DNA from: Natronolimnobius sp. AArcel1
Lineage (GTDB): Archaea > Halobacteriota > Halobacteria > Halobacteriales > Natrialbaceae
Length of the DNA: 64,000 nucleotides
Direction of reading: 5' to 3'
Assembly (NCBI RefSeq): GCF_011043775.1
Contig: NZ_JAAKXY010000003.1
Span: forward strand, 186,001 to 250,000
Under the pieces are notes generated by a model. It did not search any database, had not been told where the DNA came from, and saw only the letters and a list, made by a program, of their open reading frames with translations. This document shows positions 11,328 through 50,514 of this stretch, piece after piece; within the stretch, counting starts at the first letter, position 1, and each line of letters starts with the position of its first letter. The position numbers and the translations under genes were made by a program.

Positions 11328-12350
11328 ATGCAAGACGATCCAGTTAGTCCCGAGACAGCAGTTGATGAGTTTCTTGAAACGAGAGCGCCTGAGGTTAGTG
11401 ATGCGACGATACAGAACCTCCGCTACCGACTGAAGCAGTTCCGTCTATGGGCGGACGATGTCGGACTCGAAGATATGCGTGAGCTCAATGGGAAACAGTG
11501 CGAGCAATTCAAGTTGACTCGATCGAGCTCTGGGTTAGCGCCGATCACAATGCGCCACCACATGAGAACGTTTCGCCAGTTCGTGCGGTGGTGTGGAGTT
11601 GTCGGCTACTGCGACAAGAGTCTCCACGAACTCGTCCGTGTCCCTTCCGTCAAAAAGGCGGATCGTCGTCGTGACGATGCTCTCTCTTACGAGAGAGCTA
11701 ATCGAATCAAGTCCTATCTCAACGAACTCGAGTACTGCACCCGCCAGCACATCATCTTTGGGATACTCTGGCACACTGGGATGCGAACTGGGAGTGCTCG
11801 AGCACTTGACGTCGATGATATCGAATACGCGAACGATGGAACGATGTATCTGAGAGTACGACACCGGCCTGGAACTGACACACCACTCAAGCTTGGATCT
11901 GAGGGTGAGCGTAACGTCACTATCGGTGATCCAGAGCTTGCGTCCGCGATCGATGACTGGATCCAACATAAGCGTCCTTCTGTCGAAGACGAGTATGGGA
12001 GAGATCCCCTCTTGGCAACTGAGGAGGGACGTGTTTCGACATCGACACTCCGAATCGATGTCTATCGGGCAACACAACCCTGCATGATCGACGACTGCCC
12101 ACACGGACAGGATCCAGAAGAGTGCGATCATGTCGGATACGTAGAGCCAGGAGGATGTCCATCAGCTGTCGGCCCACACGCCATCCGGCGGAGTGCGATC
12201 ACAGCAACTCTCAATGAGGGAGTGCCGAAAGAGATAGTCTCCGAACGAGTCAACGTTAATGTTGATACCCTCACAGAACACTATGATGTTCGATCTGAAG
12301 AACAAGCGCGTACTACCCGTCAACAGTATATTGATGATCTGAGGTTCTGA
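11328..12350 (+). CDS. Tyrosine recombinase / integrase (int1)
   Basis: A 340-residue integrase. The N-terminal SAM-like core-binding domain (about residues 8-95) is followed by the catalytic domain with Arg I in HTGMRTGSARALDVDD, the box II HAIRRS (H-x-x-R) and the nucleophile Tyr in LTEHYDVRSE. Before box II is a Cys-rich insertion (C...CPHGQDPEEC...CP), also found in the integrases at 48.2, 49.2 and 53.7 kb, that could bind zinc. Its position next to the left att core suggests it drives provirus integration and excision. Confidence 0.92.
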   Translation: MQDDPVSPETAVDEFLETRAPEVSDATIQNLRYRLKQFRLWADDVGLEDMRELNGKQCEQFKLTRSSSGLAPITMRHHMRTFRQFVRWCGVVGYCDKSLHELVRVPSVKKADRRRDDALSYERANRIKSYLNELEYCTRQHIIFGILWHTGMRTGSARALDVDDIEYANDGTMYLRVRHRPGTDTPLKLGSEGERNVTIGDPELASAIDDWIQHKRPSVEDEYGRDPLLATEEGRVSTSTLRIDVYRATQPCMIDDCPHGQDPEECDHVGYVEPGGCPSAVGPHAIRRSAITATLNEGVPKEIVSERVNVNVDTLTEHYDVRSEEQARTTRQQYIDDLRF

Positions 12351-20798: not shown

Positions 20799-23700
20799 AT
20801 GTCGGCAAAGGGGGCTCCCACTGAATTCAATTTCGACGATTTCGAGACAGATGTTTCCACCGAGGATGAGGATCTTGTTATCGAAACGATCGCCGAATCG
20901 ATCCAAAGACTCCGTGATCAGATAGATGACGACATCCTTGACGAAGTCTTTCGAGCCGAGCCAGGAAGGTACACTCTCCGATCGGATTTCACTCGAGATC
21001 AGCTGGATCCAGAGCCAACCACCCAGGACAGGGTGATCGAACCACTCCTCGAGGAACTTGGATATGAGAACTATGGATCTGAGGCAGGCGATTTCTCGAG
21101 CGAACGTGGCGAACAGGCCGACTACAGTGTTTCTCTACGGGACATTGATTCTGTTGACTCGAGTCGTCTTCTGATCGAAGCCGAGCCGATCAACAAGCAA
21201 CTCCAGAACCGAGGACATGGCCTCGATCAAGTCAAGAGCTGGCTGAGCCAGCGTGAGTTCGAGTCTGACTTTGGGTTCGCTACTGATGGTGTAAGGTGGA
21301 TCTTCGTCAGGTACGATCCTGACTCCTACACCCACAACATTATCGAGCACGTCGATCTTCAGCCTGTTTTCCTCACGCTTTACGAGAACGAGGCGACTAC
21401 TCGGGATCCCACGACAGAAGTCGTCTCCGAAGAAGAACGCGAGCTCATTAGGAGACTAATCCGTACATTCGGCTTCGACAACTTCCTCTCAATCATCGAT
21501 GACGCTCGCGACGTCATCAAACAGAAGCAGGAAGAGATCACCGACGAGTTCTACGATGATTACATCCGAACAGTATTCGGCGTCGCTGACGAGGAAGATT
21601 CCGAACGTCGAGCCCGTAGTCTCGTAGGAGATGGTATCATCCCACCAGACGAAGCAACCGGTGACGACGTTCGTCTATTCTCCGTCGATTTGATGAACCG
21701 TCTAATCTTCATCAAATTCCTCGAGGACAAACAAATTGTCCATCCAAACCTCCTCGAAACCATTAAAGAGACGTATGAAGACGGAACGTACCTCAACTCT
21801 CTCTATAAGTCGTTTTTCGATCCGTTATTCTACGATGTACTGAACGTCAAACCAGACAATCGAGCCTCTCATATCCAAGATATCGAGTTCTATTCGGATA
21901 TTCCCTACCTCAACGGGGGCCTCTTCCGTCCGGAATTAAGCAGTTCGTCCGACGTCAATGAGCGCGATTTCGATGTCCGGGATAATGTATTGATGTCGAT
22001 TATCGATCTTCTCGAGCGATATAAGTTCTCGACTGACGGTGGGCCTGCAGATATCGATCCGAGTGTCCTCGGGAACGTTTTCGAAAAAACGATCAACTAC
22101 CTCACTACGGATCCAGGCGATCAGAACGCCGATCTCGGAGCGTACTATACTCCGAGTGAGATCACCCGGTTCTGTGCGGAAGAGACTGTACGTCCAGCAC
22201 TATTAGATCAGTTCAGTGAGGTACTCGTCGAGGAGAGAGACTGGCCGAGCGTGGAAGTAGAGCAGTACGATACACTCTACGAGTTGATTGATGGACTCCC
22301 CGGATCTAGTGATCTCATCACCCGACTCCTCAAGGAAACCGACGAATTATACGTAGTCGATCCTGGAATGGGGAGTGGACACTTCCTCACTTCCGTTGTT
22401 GAGGAGATTGTCAACGTTCGACAAGCACTGTACGCCCGTCAGGACGCACATCCGCCTCGTCACCGACTCAAGAAGACGACTGTCCAGAATAACATCTACG
22501 GTGTCGACATCATGGGGCCAGCCGTCGAGATCGGCAAGCTCCGTCTTTGGTTATCGATCGTCTCTGAGCTCAGAGAAGAGGATATCGACGAGTTAGATAC
22601 TGAGGAGATTGCCCTCCCGAATATCACATTCAACATTCGGGCCGGAAACACGCTAATTGGGTACGTTGGCTTCCCCGAAGAAACGGAAGACGGGCTTGCT
22701 ACCTTTGAGCGTTGGAACGAGGACAGTGTTCGCTCACGATACGAGGACGTCATCGAGGAGATTGAACTCCACGAGAAGTACAATGCGTTCCCAGAGAAGG
22801 CTGAAGAGCACCGTCAAAACGCGAAGGAGTTGTTGAAACAGTACCGTGGTGAACTCGACGACGAGATCCTCGAGGATTTCCAAGACACAGTCGATAATGT
22901 CTCTGAGGACGATCTCGAGGCGTATACCCCGTTCCACTGGGTTCTCGAGTTCGCCGAGGTGTATGCTGATGGTGGGTTCGATGTTATCGTCGGAAACCCA
23001 CCATGGGATCGATTACGGCCAACTCGAGACGACTACTTCGCTCGGTACGATGAGGAGTTCCAGTCATACCTCCCGGAAGACAAGAATTCCCGACAAGAAG
23101 AGTTACTCGAAAATCCTGAGATCGAAGAGGGGTGGGAAGAATATCAGCGCGAAATCGAGATTGTGACAGAGTATTTCCACGACTCTGGGGAATACACGAT
23201 GCAATCTCCCACAATTGGTGGACAAAGCCAGGGTACCGAGAACGACTTGTCTGCGCTCTTCCTAGAGAGGATCTTCCAGTTAGCTAAGGATGGGGGATAT
23301 GTTTCTCAGGTACTCCCTGGTGCGATTTTCAACGGAGCCTCTACGAAGGATCTCCGAACACATCTCCTCGATGAGACAACTATTCAATCACTCGTCACGT
23401 TCGAGAATCGCGGTATTGTCTTCCCAGAGATCCATAATCAATACAACTTTGGAGTGATTACGTTCAAGAATTCCGGGCGAACAGAGGATCTCCACGGTAT
23501 ATTCCAGCAAATTGGAATGGATGTCCTCGATGATATCGAGGAAAATGCGCTCACAATCCCTCGACGTGTCCTTCGCGAATACTCGCCTGAGGCTCGGATT
23601 TTCCCGTATCTCCAGTCTCAGCAGGAAGTAGACGTCCTGGATACGATCGTAGAGCATCCACCAATTAGCGATGACACGCATGATGATTGGTATGCACACC

Positions 23701-24647
23701 CATATAGGGAGTTAGATCGAACTAACGACTCGGATCGATTTGTCGAGGACAAGTCTGAAGGAGACTATCCTGTATATGGTGGCAGCAATATCTATCAGTT
23801 CAGTCACGATCCATCGTTTGTCGATATCGAAGGGCCAGAGTTCTGGAGTGTAGATGAGGATGTTGATCCAGAGCTAAGTGCAAAATATCGAGTTCGGGAG
23901 AAGAACCTACGCAAACTCAAACGAGGACTCTACGATGCGTTTGATGGGACTGGCTCCCAGGTTGGGTTTGTGAATGAACTCCTCGAGGAGCACCGAGGAG
24001 AAGAACTCTCTGAGGATGACGTCCTACTTGACTGCACCGAGTATCGAATTGTCTACCGAGATATCGCCAGAGCGACTGATGAGCGAACATTGATTGCTTC
24101 GGTGATACCGAAAGGAATTGTCTGCCAGAACAAACTCCACACAATCCGTCCATATGAGATTAATCCTGACAAGTGCGATTTATCAGATTCCCCACTTCAC
24201 AGTGTCTATGATCGTATTTTCACTGATAAAGAGTTATTTGTTGTCCTTGGGTTGGTTAATAGCATTACATTTGATTATCTGATGAGGACAAAGATTGATT
24301 CTACTGTTGTAATGTACAAATTCATGGAATCACAGGTACCTCGACTCACTGAGGGTGACGAGTGGTTCGAGTACATCTGGACTCGAGCAGCGAGACTCAA
24401 CTGCTATGGAGACGAGTTCGAGGAGATGCGTGATCGATTAGGAATCGATGCTGTGACTGATCCAGATAAACGCGAAGAGATCCAGGCTGAGCTCGATGCC
24501 GGTGCGTTCCATGCATACGGCTTCGATCGAGGACAGGTAGAGTTCATCCTCGACGACTTCCATATGGTGCAGAATCCGCGACGAATGACGGACGAGTATC
24601 TCGATCTCGTACTCGGGAAGTACGACGAGTTAGCCGACACACGATAG
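20799..24647 (+). CDS. Eco57I-like (type IIG/BREX PglX-like) DNA methylase with degenerate HsdR-N domain
   Basis: A 1282-residue protein. The N-terminus (about 65-130) resembles the HsdR N-terminal nuclease fold: QDRVIEPLLEELGY, QADYSV, then LLIEAEPIN. The usual E-x-K is E-A-E here, so nuclease activity is doubtful. The methylase part has GAYYTPSEITRF (about 447), DPGMGSGHFLTS (motif I, about 520) and VIVGNPPWDRL (motif IV, about 730), which is an N6-adenine methyltransferase order. The C-terminal 400 residues should recognise the target sequence. It sits alone with no BREX partners. It may protect viral DNA, act as a single-chain restriction enzyme, or exclude other phages. Confidence 0.85.
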   Translation: MSAKGAPTEFNFDDFETDVSTEDEDLVIETIAESIQRLRDQIDDDILDEVFRAEPGRYTLRSDFTRDQLDPEPTTQDRVIEPLLEELGYENYGSEAGDFSSERGEQADYSVSLRDIDSVDSSRLLIEAEPINKQLQNRGHGLDQVKSWLSQREFESDFGFATDGVRWIFVRYDPDSYTHNIIEHVDLQPVFLTLYENEATTRDPTTEVVSEEERELIRRLIRTFGFDNFLSIIDDARDVIKQKQEEITDEFYDDYIRTVFGVADEEDSERRARSLVGDGIIPPDEATGDDVRLFSVDLMNRLIFIKFLEDKQIVHPNLLETIKETYEDGTYLNSLYKSFFDPLFYDVLNVKPDNRASHIQDIEFYSDIPYLNGGLFRPELSSSSDVNERDFDVRDNVLMSIIDLLERYKFSTDGGPADIDPSVLGNVFEKTINYLTTDPGDQNADLGAYYTPSEITRFCAEETVRPALLDQFSEVLVEERDWPSVEVEQYDTLYELIDGLPGSSDLITRLLKETDELYVVDPGMGSGHFLTSVVEEIVNVRQALYARQDAHPPRHRLKKTTVQNNIYGVDIMGPAVEIGKLRLWLSIVSELREEDIDELDTEEIALPNITFNIRAGNTLIGYVGFPEETEDGLATFERWNEDSVRSRYEDVIEEIELHEKYNAFPEKAEEHRQNAKELLKQYRGELDDEILEDFQDTVDNVSEDDLEAYTPFHWVLEFAEVYADGGFDVIVGNPPWDRLRPTRDDYFARYDEEFQSYLPEDKNSRQEELLENPEIEEGWEEYQREIEIVTEYFHDSGEYTMQSPTIGGQSQGTENDLSALFLERIFQLAKDGGYVSQVLPGAIFNGASTKDLRTHLLDETTIQSLVTFENRGIVFPEIHNQYNFGVITFKNSGRTEDLHGIFQQIGMDVLDDIEENALTIPRRVLREYSPEARIFPYLQSQQEVDVLDTIVEHPPISDDTHDDWYAHPYRELDRTNDSDRFVEDKSEGDYPVYGGSNIYQFSHDPSFVDIEGPEFWSVDEDVDPELSAKYRVREKNLRKLKRGLYDAFDGTGSQVGFVNELLEEHRGEELSEDDVLLDCTEYRIVYRDIARATDERTLIASVIPKGIVCQNKLHTIRPYEINPDKCDLSDSPLHSVYDRIFTDKELFVVLGLVNSITFDYLMRTKIDSTVVMYKFMESQVPRLTEGDEWFEYIWTRAARLNCYGDEFEEMRDRLGIDAVTDPDKREEIQAELDAGAFHAYGFDRGQVEFILDDFHMVQNPRRMTDEYLDLVLGKYDELADTR

Positions 24648-26310: not shown

Positions 26311-27846
26311 ATGTCAGCGCAGGACTCCAACCCACTCGAGAAGTACGTAACTGGCGAAGAGCGGTACGTCCGCTTCACTGAGGAGATCCTTGGAGTCCAG
26401 CTGGCCGAAGTCCAGAAGAAGATCCTCCGTGCTGTCACAGAGAACAAGCACCTCGTCGTCGTCTCCGGGAACGGTGTCGGGAAGTCCTACGCGATTGCCT
26501 GTCTGAACCTGGCGTTCCTCTACACGAATCCTAACTCCACTGTCGTCATGACGTCTGGCTCGTACAGCCAGATGGAGGAGGCGACGTTCAAGCCTATGGA
26601 GTCGCTCCTTCGCAGCGCGAAGGATGATTTCCCACTCCCTGGAGATGTGAAGAAGTCGCCCCCGAGAATCGAGTTCGAACACGATCCCGAGCACTACTTC
26701 CGGTGCATCTCCGGCCGATATCCGGACAACCTTGAGGGCCGTCACAACGAACGCGTTCTGGTACTGGTGGACGAGGCCGACAAACCCGACATCACCCAGG
26801 AGCACTTCGATTCTGCTCAGTCCTCGATCACGGACGAGAAGGATCGGATGGTTGTGATCGGCAACCCGCCTCGTGACGAGGGCAACTCGCTGTACGAGCT
26901 CATGACGGATCCTCGCTACGAGGTGATCCAGTTCTCCTCGATGGACTCACACAACGCTCGAGTCGACGCTGGTTTGGTAGAGGGTGACAAGATCCCTGGC
27001 CTCGTCGATCTGAAGCAGGTTCGAGAGGACTATCGCTCCTGGAATCGGGAGAACTTCCCCGGCTTCGAAAACATCCTCGACACACTCGAGAAGGACGACG
27101 AGACTGGAGTCCTCGAGTGTACTGAGAAAGGCCTCGACGAACGCTGGTACCGACGTCGTCTCGGAGTGATCCCTCCGACTGGAGCGAAGTCTGTCCGTCC
27201 ATTCTACGCCGAGGACGTCACCACAGCCGAGAACAACTGGGAGGAGATCAACGACGATCAGGACGAGATCGAGTACGACGCGTACGGCGTCGACGTTGCT
27301 CGTGGAGGTGGCGATCGTACGGTGATCGCTGGGATCACTCCAGAGCGAGTCGACATCCTCGAGTCCGTCGAATCTCCGGGCGATCACTCGGTGAACAAAC
27401 GCCTCGTCGAGCGCCACGTAGATGACAATCGCACACCTGTCATTATGGACGCGATCGGTGAGGGTTCGGGGATCGCTGACGAGCTCAATCGCGAGGGCTA
27501 CAACGTCACTCGATACAAGGCGAGTGAGAACGCTCGACAGCGGAAGAAGTACAACGACTGTCGCACTGAAGCGCTCTGCGAGCTCGGCAACTGGCTCGAG
27601 AACGGCGCCGTCGAACCCAAGACGGACGTCGCATCCGAACTCCGGGAGGCTGCTCGTCATATCGAACTGGAAGAGAAGTCGCTCAAGAGTGGCACTACCT
27701 GGAAGGCTACGTCGAAGTCAGATCTGAAGAAGAGCGACGCTCTCGGACGATCTCCGGACTTGCTCGACGCAGTCTCCCTGGCTGCCTGGGGCCTCAATGT
27801 CGAGCAGGCGTCGTCGAATGCCGGGTACTCGTTCTACTCGTACTGA
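26311..27846 (+). CDS. Terminase large subunit
   Basis: A 511-residue packaging motor. The ATPase has Walker A SGNGVGKSY (residues 52-60) and Walker B VLVLVDEAD (149-157). The nuclease domain has Asp residues in YDAYGVDVARGGG (D328) and PVIMDAIGEG (D380), and a last one in SPDLLDAVSLAAW. All key residues are present and the length is typical. It cleaves concatemeric viral DNA and pumps it into the prohead. It is followed directly by the portal gene. Confidence 0.95.
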   Translation: MSAQDSNPLEKYVTGEERYVRFTEEILGVQLAEVQKKILRAVTENKHLVVVSGNGVGKSYAIACLNLAFLYTNPNSTVVMTSGSYSQMEEATFKPMESLLRSAKDDFPLPGDVKKSPPRIEFEHDPEHYFRCISGRYPDNLEGRHNERVLVLVDEADKPDITQEHFDSAQSSITDEKDRMVVIGNPPRDEGNSLYELMTDPRYEVIQFSSMDSHNARVDAGLVEGDKIPGLVDLKQVREDYRSWNRENFPGFENILDTLEKDDETGVLECTEKGLDERWYRRRLGVIPPTGAKSVRPFYAEDVTTAENNWEEINDDQDEIEYDAYGVDVARGGGDRTVIAGITPERVDILESVESPGDHSVNKRLVERHVDDNRTPVIMDAIGEGSGIADELNREGYNVTRYKASENARQRKKYNDCRTEALCELGNWLENGAVEPKTDVASELREAARHIELEEKSLKSGTTWKATSKSDLKKSDALGRSPDLLDAVSLAAWGLNVEQASSNAGYSFYSY

Positions 27847-27877: not shown

Positions 27878-29398
27878 ATGAGTTTAAGCGATCGACTGCG
27901 TGATGCAGTTCTCGGACACGGTGAACCCGACGTCCAGTCGGAGAATCGGACGGACGAATACGCCTACTATACTGTTTCTGGCGATGCACATCGGATCCGC
28001 CCGAACAAGGGCGATCTCGAGCACTACTGGGAGCAGTATCGTACCTGCCCGATCGTCCGTCGTGGGATCGACATTTACGCCGAGGACATCACTGCACCTG
28101 GCTATCGTGTCGACGCCGAGAATGACGAGCTCGTCGAGGATCTCGAGGATTGGCTCTCCAATTCGGCGATTGTAGCCGGCGAGTCACACCGTGACTTCTC
28201 GGCGATCCTCGATGGTTCGATCATCCAGGAGGAGGTTCGAGGAACGGCACTCGTCGAGATCGTCCCAAAGGCTGAGGCAGAAGACGAGATATGGGGGTTC
28301 CGCCTCATCAACGTGAGTACCGTTTCCGCCTATACCTACGAGAATCAAGCTGTCCTGATCCGTCCTGACGACACTGAACTCGATGGCGTACAGATGACGC
28401 CTCGAGGCGAAGCAGCAGCCTATGGACAGTGGGATAACAGCGCTCTCGCCGGCCCGTTCGATGACAAGAACACTGTTCCACTCTCCCAGAACGATGTTGT
28501 CAAAGTGGTGAAAGATCCTGACACCTCGGACATCTTCGGCAACAGTTCGATCGAGCCCGTCTCCGACGAGATCGACGAGCTGTACCGGATGCTCGACGAC
28601 GTCGGTGAGGCAGTCCACTCCAAGGGTTATCCTCTCTGGGTGTTCTACCTCGGTGAGCCGAACGGAGACGTCACCGATCCTCGAGCCGGCATCTGGCCCG
28701 AGGATGAGATGCAGAACTATCGCGACGAACACAAGAAAGGGAACTGGAGCACCAATCAGAAGGACTTCGTGCCCGGAGACGTGGACGTCGATCGGATCGA
28801 GGGAGAGGTTCCCGAGATCGAGGAACTCCTGGACTGGTACGTTGAAGAAATCGTCTCCGCTCTCCCTGTTCCGAAGTACAAGTTAGGTTTCACTGACGAC
28901 ATCAACCGGGACGTCACCTCCGAGCAGAGTCCTCAGTACGAGCGCAAGATCGAGAACAAGCGTCGACAGCTCGAGGAAGCGTTCACACCTGTCCTCCGAC
29001 AGAAGGCTGAGGAACTCGGCTACAGCGACGACGTCGTTAGCTCCGTCGAACTCTCGATCGAGGAGGATCGGGAGGAGAACCCACTGGTTCGAGACGACTT
29101 CGACGCTTCAGAGTTCGCCGAGTTCTGTCGTGGCCTCCAGGCAGCTGCTGGCAACGAGGGCGAACCCAGCGACATCGTCCCACCTGAAGAGATGCGCGAT
29201 CTCCTCGGCCTCCCCGATCGGGACGAAGTCGAGGAAAGTGAGCTCGCTGACGAACTGGACGAGGACAACGAAGAAGTCCAAGCACAGTTCGAGAAACTCT
29301 ATGGTGAACCATCGACACCTGACTCGATGGGTGACGGTGCCGACTTCGATCTCGACACCTCGAACGAATCGGAACCTGAAGCGCCCACTGCGGATTAA
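27878..29398 (+). CDS. Portal protein
   Basis: A 506-residue protein with the HK97/SPP1-type portal pattern: LEHYWEQYRTCPIVRRGIDI near the start, ALVEIVPK, and a long acidic C-terminal tail after the clip region. It forms the dodecameric ring through which DNA enters and leaves the head. It follows the large terminase by 31 bases. The acidic, low-complexity C-terminus (about 430-506) is longer than in many phages. Confidence 0.88.
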   Translation: MSLSDRLRDAVLGHGEPDVQSENRTDEYAYYTVSGDAHRIRPNKGDLEHYWEQYRTCPIVRRGIDIYAEDITAPGYRVDAENDELVEDLEDWLSNSAIVAGESHRDFSAILDGSIIQEEVRGTALVEIVPKAEAEDEIWGFRLINVSTVSAYTYENQAVLIRPDDTELDGVQMTPRGEAAAYGQWDNSALAGPFDDKNTVPLSQNDVVKVVKDPDTSDIFGNSSIEPVSDEIDELYRMLDDVGEAVHSKGYPLWVFYLGEPNGDVTDPRAGIWPEDEMQNYRDEHKKGNWSTNQKDFVPGDVDVDRIEGEVPEIEELLDWYVEEIVSALPVPKYKLGFTDDINRDVTSEQSPQYERKIENKRRQLEEAFTPVLRQKAEELGYSDDVVSSVELSIEEDREENPLVRDDFDASEFAEFCRGLQAAAGNEGEPSDIVPPEEMRDLLGLPDRDEVEESELADELDEDNEEVQAQFEKLYGEPSTPDSMGDGADFDLDTSNESEPEAPTAD

Positions 29399-36090: not shown

Positions 36091-36897
36091 ATGTCCGTTA
36101 CTTCTAACGACGTTATCGATCAGGAAGCCGTTCGCGCTGAAGTTGAAGAGTACGCCGAGAAGAACCGTGTCTGGCGACAGGCCTTCCGCCAGATCGACAG
36201 CACCGACATCGACTCCAACACTGTCGAGATTCCTGTTCTCGACGAGGAGCGCGCTGCTGGTGTCGTCGACGAGGGTACTTCGTACCCGTCGGCTGGCGAC
36301 GCCACTCGCAAGGTGGACGTCGAGCACAACAAGTACGGTGTCGAAGTCGAGCTCACCTACGAGGCGATCCAGGATGCACTCCTGGACGTCATCGCCCTCC
36401 ACACGGAAGAGCGCGCCGAGGATCTGGCCGACGCCCTTGACGAGGCTGCCTACGCGGAAGTCGAAGGCAACCTCCAGGCCGACGTCATCGGCGACGCTGG
36501 TGGCGAGCTCGGCTACACGGACGTCATCGACGCGATGACGGCCCTCGAGGGTGAGTCGTTCGAGCCCGATCTTCTCATTGTCTCGCCCGAGAGCAAGGGA
36601 GATCTCATGAAGTCGGACGAGTTCACCCGAGCCTCCGAGCTCGGTGACGACATCGTCCGCGACGGTGCGTTCGGTGAAGTTGCCGGCGTCCCCGTCTTCG
36701 TCGACGACGGTGGCCACATCGGCGCTGGTGAGGCTGTCATGTTCGACAGTGGACGCTACGGCATCGAGTCGGAGCGTGAGGCCATGACGAGCCAAGAGTA
36801 CGAAGAGGAGTCGGAGAACAAGCGCGTCGTCCAGGTTCGCACCCGAATGGGATGGAAGGCTGTCCGTCCCGAGGCCGGCGTCAAGATCGAGGGCTGA
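36091..36897 (+). CDS. Major capsid protein (HK97 fold)
   Basis: A 268-residue protein directly after the protease-scaffold. It begins with a helical N-arm (VRAEVEEYAEKNRVWRQAFR). The middle has the spine-helix and loop pattern (LTYEAIQDALLDVIALHTEE), and the end has VQVRTRMGWKAVRPEAGVKI. Length and pattern agree with small HK97-fold capsids of archaeal tailed viruses. It would assemble the icosahedral head. Confidence 0.88.
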   Translation: MSVTSNDVIDQEAVRAEVEEYAEKNRVWRQAFRQIDSTDIDSNTVEIPVLDEERAAGVVDEGTSYPSAGDATRKVDVEHNKYGVEVELTYEAIQDALLDVIALHTEERAEDLADALDEAAYAEVEGNLQADVIGDAGGELGYTDVIDAMTALEGESFEPDLLIVSPESKGDLMKSDEFTRASELGDDIVRDGAFGEVAGVPVFVDDGGHIGAGEAVMFDSGRYGIESEREAMTSQEYEEESENKRVVQVRTRMGWKAVRPEAGVKIEG

Positions 36898-38836: not shown

Positions 38837-40036
38837 ATGACGAATCAGGCTACTAACGCTGACAGCGGGTTCCGCAACCACCGTGTCGAGTTCGTTCGAG
38901 AAGATGAGCCCGGCGTCACGCCGGACGATCCCGACTGGGAGCTCTTCTCGGATACGCTCGAGACTGCACTCCAGTGGGATGCGGACGCTCAGATCGAAGC
39001 ACAGCGCGGACTCGGCGAGTACGAAGTCCAGAACCACTTTACTGGGGCGGAAGATCACACCGTCTCGATCGACTATCAGCTCCAGCGATTCTTCGTCGAC
39101 GATGGTGGTGATCCCCTCGATCCCGCAGGGGACGCCATCATTCGCGGAGAGGATGGTGGTGTCAAGAACACCCACACCATCGTCGATCGAGCCGAGTACG
39201 ACGGTGCTCGAACCTACGTCGTAGCTCGAGGTTGCTATCCGAACCTCGACGACGTCTCGGGTGATCCGGGGAGCGCACTCCCGATCGTCGTCTCGCTCGA
39301 CTACGAGGCGAAGCGTGTCCGCCAGTTCAAGGCCGAGCAGCCGTCGGGTGAGCCTCTGACGATTCGCTCGACGAGCTCGGACGACACCTCGCAGACGATC
39401 GCACTCGAGTCCCAGGGTGCTTACGCAAGCGAGGAAGTCGAACTCGAGGGGACGTCGGACGTCACCACGGAAGAGGAGTTCTCCTCGCTTGACGCCTTCG
39501 AGCTCGACGAACCCACCGAGGGTGACGTCGTGATCGAGGACGCCGATGGTAACGAACTCGCCCGACTCCACGGCGCCGAGAGCTACGATGGTGCTCGAGG
39601 AGATCTCGGTGTCCCAGCTCTCGGTGACGGGAGCCACGGCGACGCTATCGCTGAACCGTACGAGCGCTTCCTCGACGACGAGATCACGAAGGGTGGCGCT
39701 CGACTGGCTGCTGAGGTTCGCTCGGCCTCGTTCAACGTCGACAACGACTACGAGAAGGAGCCTGTTATGGGTGGAACCGAGCAGGCTATCCACGTCGGTG
39801 AGCAGGACGCTGAGTTCTCGGCGACTGTTGCGGGCAACTTCGAGCAGCACGACGCTCTCGTCGATCACCTCCAGGCCAACGAGTTCGATCTCGTCTGGGA
39901 GTTCGACGGTGGCTCGATCACCTTCAAGGACGCTGTCCTTGTCGGGCCCGGCGAAGTCGGCCCCGAGGCTGGCGACGTCATCTCGACGATGGACAACTCC
40001 TTCGAACCGAAGGGAATCGAACTCGACGCCAACTAA
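38837..40036 (+). CDS. Major tail tube protein
   Basis: A 399-residue acidic, beta-rich protein (VSIDYQLQRFFVDDGGDPLD, DTSQTIALESQGAYASEEVE) placed just before the tail-assembly chaperone. That position is almost invariably the tail tube subunit. The C-terminal part (EQHDALVDHLQANEFDLVWE, GSITFKDAVL) gives the strand-helix-strand pattern of the tube fold. It is larger than most phage tube proteins, so a decoration domain may be inserted. Confidence 0.75.
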   Translation: MTNQATNADSGFRNHRVEFVREDEPGVTPDDPDWELFSDTLETALQWDADAQIEAQRGLGEYEVQNHFTGAEDHTVSIDYQLQRFFVDDGGDPLDPAGDAIIRGEDGGVKNTHTIVDRAEYDGARTYVVARGCYPNLDDVSGDPGSALPIVVSLDYEAKRVRQFKAEQPSGEPLTIRSTSSDDTSQTIALESQGAYASEEVELEGTSDVTTEEEFSSLDAFELDEPTEGDVVIEDADGNELARLHGAESYDGARGDLGVPALGDGSHGDAIAEPYERFLDDEITKGGARLAAEVRSASFNVDNDYEKEPVMGGTEQAIHVGEQDAEFSATVAGNFEQHDALVDHLQANEFDLVWEFDGGSITFKDAVLVGPGEVGPEAGDVISTMDNSFEPKGIELDAN

Positions 40037-40164: not shown

Positions 40165-40614
40165 ATGACAGAAGACGACGAACTTTCGATCGCACAGCCC
40201 GATGACTTCTTCGTCACTCGAGACGATGATGACGAGCTTCAGCCCGTAACGCAGCCACTTCCTGGTGTTCAGGAACACATCCGTGTCGTCCCAATGACGA
40301 TGGGCGACATCAACGAGTATGGTGGCTCTGATGAACGTCTGAACCCGAACCAGCTGTCCACTGAGGACATCGCCGAGATCATCAACGAACACTGGTACGA
40401 TGCTCGGGAGAAGGACGACTTCGAAGTCACCCCCGAGATGGTGGAAGAAGACATGGTTGCGTTCGGTGCCGATCCCCTTCTCCGAGCGATCCTCGAGGCC
40501 TCGGGGTACTCCATGCAGAACGCACTGAACATGGAGAACCTGGAGATGCTCGAACAGATCGATGATCCGGGAAAGTTGGAGACGATGATGGAGTTAGCCG
40601 AGAGTCGGAGCTGA
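40165..40614 (+). CDS. Tail assembly chaperone, short form (gpG-like)
   Basis: A 149-residue acidic protein between tail tube and tape measure, where the gpG-type chaperone is expected. It is helical in its second half (DPLLRAILEASGYSMQNALN). The upstream region contains an inverted repeat (GGAAACCTC...GAGGTTCC, about 40104-40142). Near its end lies a GGGAAAG slip site. Most ribosomes should stop here at 40612-40614; a minority should shift to make the long form. Confidence 0.8.
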   Translation: MTEDDELSIAQPDDFFVTRDDDDELQPVTQPLPGVQEHIRVVPMTMGDINEYGGSDERLNPNQLSTEDIAEIINEHWYDAREKDDFEVTPEMVEEDMVAFGADPLLRAILEASGYSMQNALNMENLEMLEQIDDPGKLETMMELAESRS

Positions 40615-40859
40615 AGGAGAAAGCACTCTGGATCAAGCAGCTCCACGATAACGGCTACGAGTACATCGGCGATTCCTCGTTCTACAAGCTGACTCTTCCC
40701 GAAACTCGAGTTCTCCTCGAGGGTGTCAACGAGCAGAACCGGAGGAAGGCGAAGAACTCCGGCCAGACGAAGGGCAGTGGTGTCCACGAGCGGGCACCAG
40801 GTGAAGCTCGGAAGTCCGACGAAGAGTGGGTAGAGAGCCTCGCTCGCGAACAGAACTGA
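40165..40859 (+). CDS. Tail assembly chaperone, -1 frameshift product (gpG-T-like)
   Basis: The -1 frame is open from 40566 to the stop at 40857-40859. It reads VGDDDGVSRESELKEKALWI and continues with normal haloarchaeal codon use to WVESLAREQN, with no start codon of its own nearby. A shift at GGGAAAG (40569-40575) would fuse 137 residues of the short form to 94 new ones, giving about 231 residues. The position before the tape measure and the identical slip sequence match the gpG/gpGT system of phage lambda. The long form should bind the tape measure and recruit tube subunits. Confidence 0.85.
40569..40575 (+). promoter_or_regulatory. Ribosomal -1 slippery site GGGAAAG
   Basis: In the zero frame the codons are CCG GGA AAG, so the heptamer is X-XXY-YYZ as required. 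It lies 37 bases before the zero-frame stop and just after the point where the -1 frame opens (stop at 40563-40565). Confidence 0.85.
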
Positions 40860-48131: not shown

Positions 48132-48208
48132 AAGGGTCGAAGTACGTGGGATCTCTTCCCCCTCAGATCTGCGCGCGAGACGTCTTCTAACGGGCATCCG
48201 TGACAACA

Positions 48209-49207
48209 ATGAGCACGGACAAAGACGATCTCGAACCACTCGATCCGAAGACAGCGCAAGAGCTGTTCCTCGATCACAAGGCGACGGGCTGCACAGAATC
48301 AACTGTCCGAAACCATCGGTACCGTACGAACCATTTCATCGAATGGTGCGAAGAAGAGGGCATCGATAACCTCAACGACCTCTCCGGTCGAGACATCCAG
48401 CAGTTTCGACTCTGGCGGAAAGGAGATGGAGAACTCAACAAGCTCACGCTCCGGATGCAAATGAGCACGCTCCGCGTGTTCCTCAAGTGGGCTGGATCTA
48501 TCGAGGCTGTTCCTCAGGACCTCTACAACAAGGTAATGGTCCCTCGTGTCAGTCCTGCCGAGCGACGGAACGACGAGACCCTGGATGCAGACGATGCACA
48601 GAAAATCCTTCAGTACCTCTCGAAGTACGAGTACGCCTCGATTGAGCACACCTTGCTCGCGTTACTCTGGGAGACTGGCATGAGGATTGGAGCGGTAAAT
48701 TCGCTCGATCTCCAAGATGTTGACTTCGATGAGGAGCGTATCCAACTTGTCCATAGACAAAGTGAGGGAACAACGCTGAAGAACGGTAAAGGAGGTGAGC
48801 GTCTGGTTGCAATGACGCCAGCGCTCACAGAACTGCTCCGTGAGCACGTCGATGCTAACCGCCACGACGTGACTGATGATTACGGTCGAGAGCCGCTCAT
48901 CACAACGAGGCATGGACGGATGGCTCGAAGCACAATGCGTCGAATGATCAACCGGATCACAGCGCCGTGTTACCGCAACGAGTCCTGTCCCGATTGCGAA
49001 GAGGAGGTGAACGCAAAATGCCCAGAAGCGGTCAGTCCCCACGCCATTCGCCGTGGGAGCATCACTCACTTTCTCTCCGAAGACGTCCCAGTAGAGATTG
49101 TGAGCGATCGCATGAACGTGAGCCGTCGCATCCTTGGCGAACACTACGACAAGCGGTCAGAGGAGGTGAAATTAGAGCAACGTCGAGGCTACCTCGATAA
49201 CATTTAA
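48209..49207 (+). CDS. Tyrosine recombinase / integrase (int2)
   Basis: About 332 residues. The N-terminal core-binding domain (STVRNHRYRTNHFIEWCEEE) leads to the catalytic domain with Arg I in WETGMRIGAVNSLDLQD, HAIRRGSITHF and the Tyr in LGEHYDKRSEEV. A Cys-rich insertion (CYRNESCPDCEEEVNAKCP) precedes box II. It lies just outside the right provirus core, so it belongs to a second element sharing the att site or to a tandem integration. It is convergent with the next integrase, 14 bases apart. An in-frame GTG at 48200 is the alternative start. Confidence 0.9.
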   Translation: MSTDKDDLEPLDPKTAQELFLDHKATGCTESTVRNHRYRTNHFIEWCEEEGIDNLNDLSGRDIQQFRLWRKGDGELNKLTLRMQMSTLRVFLKWAGSIEAVPQDLYNKVMVPRVSPAERRNDETLDADDAQKILQYLSKYEYASIEHTLLALLWETGMRIGAVNSLDLQDVDFDEERIQLVHRQSEGTTLKNGKGGERLVAMTPALTELLREHVDANRHDVTDDYGREPLITTRHGRMARSTMRRMINRITAPCYRNESCPDCEEEVNAKCPEAVSPHAIRRGSITHFLSEDVPVEIVSDRMNVSRRILGEHYDKRSEEVKLEQRRGYLDNI

Positions 49208-49221
49208 CAACTGACTCGGCA

Positions 49222-50259
49222 TCAATGACGTCGGAATCGCCTAGAGGAATGGTCCTCTAAGTACCGGCGTCGCTGTTCCATTTTCGTCTCTTTGCTTCGT
49301 TTATCGTAATGCACGTCGAGTACTTTTGCACTGACGTTCATCCGGCTGCTTACGACCTCTGTCGGAACATTTTGGGTAAGATGATATGTGATTGATCCCC
49401 TTCGGATCGCGTGAGGAGATACGGAGGACGGACAAAGACTCGCTGACTTCTTGTTATCATTCAACGCCTCACACGTATCGAGATCCCGTCCGTGAGGACA
49501 CCGACCAGTGTAGACACATGGTCGCGTCCATCGGTAAACTATACTCCGAAGCGTGTTTTTGTGAGCACGACCGTGGACTGACGCCAACAGCGGCTCTCGG
49601 CCTTCGCCGTCTCGGGAATCCGGCCGCTGATGATAAATCCAGTCATCGAGAACTTCACACGTTTCGGGATCCAACGCGACAAGACGTTCCCCCTCTTGCT
49701 TGTTCTTCAACGGGGTAGATTCCCGGTGCCGAACTTCGAGATACCGGTCATCTGGATCATAATCTTCCACGTCTAACGCGTGAGCAGCTCCGACTCGCAT
49801 CCCAGTCGTCCAGAGGAGCCGAATCAAGACGTGATCGAACGAGGCGTACTCAAATCGGTAAAGGTAGTCCAACAGTTCGTGGGCCACGTCTTTTGTGAGA
49901 ATATCGTTACTCTGGTTGTCCCCACGGTTGAGCTTCGGCGACAATACCTTCTCGTGAAGACCTGAAGCAACAGCGTCGATCGATTCGCAGAACTTGATAA
50001 AGACGCGCAAAGTGTCCATCTGCGTCTTCACAGAAACAGCGTTCAGATTGCCTTCCTTTCGCCGCCAAATCTTGTACTCATGTAGTTGGCGTCCCGAGAG
50101 CGTGTTCAAGTTAGTTATCCCTTCTTCCTCACACCACCGGAGAAAGTGCCCAATTCGGTATTTGTGGGCTTGAAGTGTGTTTGGAGTGACCTCAGCACGT
50201 CTTTCATCAAGATAGATCTCAAACGCTTCCGCCGGATGGATTGACTCCAGTTCGGTCAT
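49222..50259 (-). CDS. Tyrosine recombinase / integrase (int3)
   Basis: About 345 residues, closely similar to int2. Arg I lies in WTTGMRVGAAHALDVED, box II is HAIRRGSITYHL and the Tyr is in LDVHYDKRSKET. The Cys-rich insertion is the fullest of the set (C...CPHGRDLDTC...CP). The ATG at 50259 (MTELESIHPAEAFEIYL) is chosen because the longer N-terminus reads through a non-acidic leader; an ATG at 50268 is also possible. It probably came with the beta-solenoid gene to its right. Confidence 0.88.
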   Translation of the reverse strand: MTELESIHPAEAFEIYLDERRAEVTPNTLQAHKYRIGHFLRWCEEEGITNLNTLSGRQLHEYKIWRRKEGNLNAVSVKTQMDTLRVFIKFCESIDAVASGLHEKVLSPKLNRGDNQSNDILTKDVAHELLDYLYRFEYASFDHVLIRLLWTTGMRVGAAHALDVEDYDPDDRYLEVRHRESTPLKNKQEGERLVALDPETCEVLDDWIYHQRPDSRDGEGREPLLASVHGRAHKNTLRSIVYRWTRPCVYTGRCPHGRDLDTCEALNDNKKSASLCPSSVSPHAIRRGSITYHLTQNVPTEVVSSRMNVSAKVLDVHYDKRSKETKMEQRRRYLEDHSSRRFRRH

Positions 50260-50514
50260 AGAGATCATACCCGTAGTCGGGTATTCCTCCCACCTTCTCA
50301 GGCACAATAACTCTATCAGTGTCAGTGGGCAACTGTACGGTTTCTTCAATTGAATTTCCGTATGAAAACCGTGTCCAGTACAAGGGTAGGAGTTATCGGG
50401 GACACCCATCTATTAGTTAGAATTATGCCAAAATTTGGGTGCTGAATATGAAGTATTAGTCGCTCACGTCTGATATCGCTGCTTAGATTCCGTCAGCAGT
50501 GTATAAGATCCCGA

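Follow-up and report, generated by a model that had tools for sequence, protein, structure and literature searches.

Likely programmed -1 frameshifting in a tail assembly chaperone of a haloarchaeal provirus

Background

Frameshifted tail assembly chaperones of haloarchaeal viruses have been on record since 2013, as cited in two publications (PMC5009743, PMC8211752). For HCTV-5 the slip site G_GGA_AAG was described (PMC5009743), and G GGA AAG was confirmed in its sequence record. A frameshift with G GGA AAT has been proposed for Hardycor1, and G GGA AAG was given for a Natronolimnobius provirus (PMC7911831). By 2021 only one archaeal -1 frameshift, that of Saccharolobus fucA1, had been demonstrated, the viral ones having been inferred (PMC8211752). 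Since frameshifted haloarchaeal chaperones as well as the identical heptamer have already been published, the case described here is not new in kind.

Here we explore a chaperone locus in a haloarchaeal (Natrialbaceae) genome of 4.56 Mb. The window, which is the whole stretch of DNA that was analysed, has 64,000 nucleotides and corresponds to bases 186001-250000 of its contig. Judged from sequence comparison, the locus can with high confidence be explained as the tail chaperone gene of a long-tailed provirus in which programmed -1 frameshifting yields the zero-frame product G and the fusion GT in the manner of gpG/gpGT.

Results and discussion

The provirus and its two chaperone frames

The window contains a tailed provirus located between two tyrosine integrases (Table 1), with the usual late-gene order of terminase, portal, capsid, tube, chaperone and tape measure. 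Next to the right-hand integrase gene, the minus strand encodes a further, third member of the integrase family (49222-50409). Within the provirus region, 5' of the terminase gene, lies a gene for an Eco57I/MmeI-like DNA methylase of 1282 aa (20799-24647). The closest named relatives of the chaperone locus are Natronosalvus hydrolyticus and Natrialba asiatica, which belong to the Natrialbaceae as well. The initial annotation of the window had placed the chaperone between tube and tape measure, which was confirmed by profile matches of both flanking genes; it had also located the end of the zero frame and the in-phase GGGAAAG correctly.

Table 1. Features of the provirus and of its tail chaperone locus, in window coordinates.
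Feature	Coordinates	Strand	Evidence
Tyrosine integrase, provirus left side	11328..12350	+	phrog_1 1.6e-29, Phage_integrase 2.6e-8
Terminase large subunit	26311..27846	+	phrog_2 4.4e-31
Portal protein	27878..29398	+	phrog_9232 6e-113
Major capsid protein	36091..36897	+	phrog_544 1.9e-32, Phage_capsid_4 4e-14
Tail tube protein (probable)	38837..40036	+	phrog_34360 1e-170 (function unknown), phrog_290 tail 7e-7, Phage_tube_2 9.6e-4 (below its cut-off)
Zero-frame ORF, predicted gpG-like tail assembly chaperone (G), 149 aa	40165..40614 (ORF to 40611, TGA 40612-40614)	+	16 homologues at 30-79% identity; homology to Hardycor1 HrrHc1_110; flanked by tube and tape measure genes
-1-frame stop TGA, 5' limit of the shift region	40563..40565	+	window sequence; 8/12 close members have a -1 stop at the site or immediately 5' of it
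Slip site G GGA AAG	40569..40575	+	in phase: zero-frame codons GGA (40570), AAG (40573)
Codon after slip site, rare Leu TTG, 3' base U	40576..40578	+	TTR usage at slip+1 in the family
-1-frame extension (T domain), 94 codons + TGA 40857-40859	40575..40859	+	pN/pS about 0.3; third-codon-position differences dominate
Tail tape measure protein, 1020 aa	40881..43943	+	TIGR01760 3e-38, PhageMin_Tail 1.6e-18, phrog_1272 2e-54; 33% to Hardycor1 tmp
Tyrosine integrase, provirus right side	48200..49207	+	Phage_integrase 9e-15

The -1 frame is open from 40566 onwards. Since it is closed by the TGA at 40563 and the zero frame ends with the TGA at 40612, a shift is restricted to 40566-40614, a region in which GGGAAAG is the single motif of the form X XXY YYZ. 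The other late genes of the provirus show a single in-phase X XXY YY hexamer in 6,094 codons, hence about 0.003 would be expected in the 16-codon overlap. Upon synonymous recoding, with the amino acids of the overlap fixed, a heptamer arose in 8% of trials. The lone other late-gene heptamer, an in-phase CCCAAAG at 28264, lies inside the portal gene and is probably due to chance.

Neither G nor T of the window gave a significant match to chaperone profiles, no lambda-type PHROG was found in either, and a sequence search of the PDB gave chance-like matches only. The structure model of G (pLDDT 74) had 3klu YqbN, a prophage tail-chaperone-like protein, as top PDB match at a non-significant E of 1.1, as well as several viral tail chaperones at E 0.1-0.4, which is suggestive only. 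The low confidence model of T (pLDDT 59) gave no fold match.

Conservation and relocation of the slip site

Searches were made in viral and genome contigs, in phage records and in genomes of the class, and gave 16 distinct homologues of the zero-frame protein besides the window. A match to a Pseudomonas sequence (L008; 43% over 37 residues), which has neither slip site nor conserved T, was attributed to chance. Of the 17 sequences, 16 (the window and 15 of the 16 homologues) carry G GGA AAN in phase shortly before the zero frame ends. The final codon is AAG in 11 carriers, AAT in three and AAA in two. AAT replaces Lys by Asn while the hexamer is retained, and GGGAAA is the constrained part of the site, with a free last base. 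The codon before GGA is CCG, CTG, GAG, ATG or CAG, always with G at its third base, a base found at 31% of the third positions elsewhere in these chaperone genes. The Gly of the slip site is encoded by GGA in every carrier; elsewhere in these genes GGA accounts for 18% of Gly codons. A product of such frequencies over the members presupposes independent sequences and is no p-value. Because third-base G and the choice of GGA persist while neighbouring amino acids change, the phased site reflects more than protein conservation.

Natrialba asiatica (L007:5408) has the non-slippery CCA GAA AAA at the usual position and an in-phase CTG GGA AAG four codons (12 nt) downstream of it, which arose by substitution and aligns without indel. 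All other site-bearing members have the site at the usual alignment column, for which reason the relocation, seen in one genome, is best read as derived in this lineage. The exception to the family pattern is L014 (30% identity; G375:C1 near 1050542-1050952), in which a T-like -1 frame is present and neither a recognisable slippery heptamer nor an evident start codon was found. It matches phrog_344 at 0.0015, the sole match to a chaperone profile among the G and T proteins examined. A further locus, L085, was picked up via its T region (E 1.3e-4) and has G GGA AAC at 1486. Its slip site abuts the zero-frame stop (G GGA AAC TAA), as it does in HCTV-2 (A AAA AAC TGA).

The heptamer of the window is that of lambda, which the initial annotation had taken as either conservation across domains or strong convergence. 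Of these, convergence is sufficient and conservation is not supported by the shared heptamer: with a last base that varies and AAG as a common Lys codon (83-87% of the Lys codons in these genes), it is by itself no evidence of common descent. An origin of the heptamer, as distinct from its mechanism, in an ancestor shared by the tailed viruses of archaea and bacteria is considered unlikely. Lambda, HCTV-5 and the family of the window do agree in heptamer, phase and gene order, and the two-product G/GT architecture may itself be ancient and could be ancestral. However, members of the family differ in the last base (G, T or A; on a tree that is poorly resolved, the label GGGAAAG changes at least four times), and L085 has C; other haloarchaeal viruses have A AAA AAC, G GGA AAC or proposed +1 sites; single-sequence hhalign comparisons, of low power, detected no homology of the G proteins to those of lambda or HCTV-5; and AAG is the default Lys codon.

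The -1 extension

In all 16 site-bearing members another 91-109 codons of the T frame follow the site, and most members share the core pattern LHxxGYxxxxxxSxxxLTxxExRxLxEG. Among the 12 closer members T differs mostly at third positions of the -1 frame and its pN/pS is about 0.3, an approximate value given that synonymous sites are near saturation; T is under purifying selection at the protein level.

It is very improbable that T is produced as a protein of its own, through termination-reinitiation or internal initiation near the zero-frame stop. A -1-frame CTG at 40611 does overlap the TGA at 40612 in the window, and T of Hardycor1 is annotated as a CDS of its own, but the stop-overlapping codon is CTA in several relatives. 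The -1 frame of the window reaches its TGA without ATG, GTG or TTG, as had been annotated initially, and most close relatives have none of these in the T frame before slip+135, i.e. past the conserved core. No start codon shared by the T regions was found, nor in most members any usable start before the core, which disfavours independent initiation. Moreover, separate initiation leaves the phased, relocated GGGAAA unexplained. A single ORF split by pseudogenization or sequencing error has a negligible probability. Two overlapping frames do resemble a broken gene, yet 16 loci from various genomes and metagenomes show this split, each of them together with a slip site, and T is kept by purifying selection.

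The -1 frameshift proposed by the initial annotation is thus well supported, slip site and -1 frame being clearly conserved among relatives. In programmed frameshifting most ribosomes would terminate at 40612 and release G, whereas in a minority tRNA-Gly on GGA and tRNA-Lys on AAG would shift by one base in the 5' direction onto GGG AAA, after which 94 further codons would be read, giving a GT fusion of 231 aa with ...IDDPGK|VGDDDGVSR as the predicted junction. By analogy with lambda, G may form a coat on the tape measure protein and GT may recruit tail tube subunits through its T part; slip efficiency would set the G:GT ratio.

Context of the slip site

The first base after the heptamer is T in 12 of the 16 members, C in three, A in one and G in none, counts that are uncorrected for relatedness; codons upstream in these genes start with G in 45% and with T in 10% of cases. 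After AAG and AAA sites only T or C occurs, the lone A belonging to an AAT site. Among Leu codons, TTA or TTG accounts for 8 of 11 at slip+1, for 6 of 200 upstream and for 2 of 16 further along the overlap, again uncorrected for relatedness. T likewise follows the heptamers of lambda, HCTV-1, HCTV-2, HCTV-5 and L085. A preference for Val (GTT) in the -1 frame could contribute to the T after the site. In E. coli, 3' nucleotides affect shifting at A_AAA_AAG, with C generally more shift-prone than U, according to a review (PMC5009743).

No conserved RNA stimulator was found: folding of the alignment gave no compensatory pair, and 13 single-sequence folds gave no conserved stem-loop, the z-scores within the family ranging between -4.3 and +0.4. 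Inspection by eye of the 24 nt upstream of the site revealed no conserved Shine-Dalgarno-like stimulator.

The host has tRNA-Lys UUU and CUU, as well as tRNA-Gly UCC, CCC and GCC, as identified at individual genomic loci by ARAGORN and the tRNA model of Rfam. Strong shiftiness at AAG in E. coli has been linked to tRNA-Lys UUU (PMC4066793), and a cognate tRNA-Lys CUU should make AAG less slippery. Since AAG motifs occur in many bacteria with both Lys tRNAs (PMC4066793), the CUU tRNA of the host does not exclude the site.

Tentatively, the shift might be driven by the slip site and its immediate 3' context, a pyrimidine after AAG or AAA that usually belongs to a rare TTR Leu codon, rather than by RNA structure. 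Archaeal ribosomes would then, despite tRNA-Lys CUU, obey a 3'-context rule like that of E. coli, and the site could move along the overlap with its mechanism kept. This is a possible explanation, on which we place rather less than even confidence.

Comparison with known systems

Hardycor1 (HrrHc1_110/115; Halorubrum virus, Graaviviridae; PMC7911831) has a homologous G (32% over 72% of the query, tblastn 1e-10), a related T motif, a related tape measure and an in-phase G GGA AAT. It differs in that the heptamer ends in T, the zero frame stops 15 nt after the site (36 in the window) and T is more divergent. The chaperones of HCTV-5 and HVTV-1 (128/129 and 129/130; Druskaviridae) are annotated as joined frameshift products and have the identical in-phase G GGA AAG between tube and tape measure, but their G proteins have no detectable homology to G of the window (hhalign probability 0.7%, from single-sequence profiles of low power). 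HCTV-1, HCTV-2, the HF1-group and HSTV-2 also have a frameshifted chaperone upstream of the tape measure. Their sites differ, being G GGA AAC in HCTV-1 and A AAA AAC in HCTV-2, whereas +1 shifts have been proposed for the HF1-group and HSTV-2 (PMC7230728, PMC5009743). Comparison of haloarchaeal chaperones for the same slip site, as suggested in the initial annotation, recovers it in HCTV-5, HVTV-1 and the Natronolimnobius provirus, next to G GGA AAT, GGGAAAC and AAAAAAC in others.

With lambda gpG/gpGT the locus shares heptamer, phase, -1 direction, gene order and two-product layout. It differs from lambda in that no protein homology is detectable (hhalign probability 0.1% to lambda G, from a single-sequence profile of low power) and in its archaeal host, which has tRNA-Lys CUU besides UUU. 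In relation to these systems, two details are apparently new, namely the relocation of the site and the pyrimidine that immediately follows AAG and AAA sites, often as part of a rare TTR Leu codon. A well-conserved family is added to the few archaeal -1 frameshifts, and its invariant GGGAAA, variable last base, relocated site and conserved 3' context form a natural mutational series for slippage tests on archaeal ribosomes.
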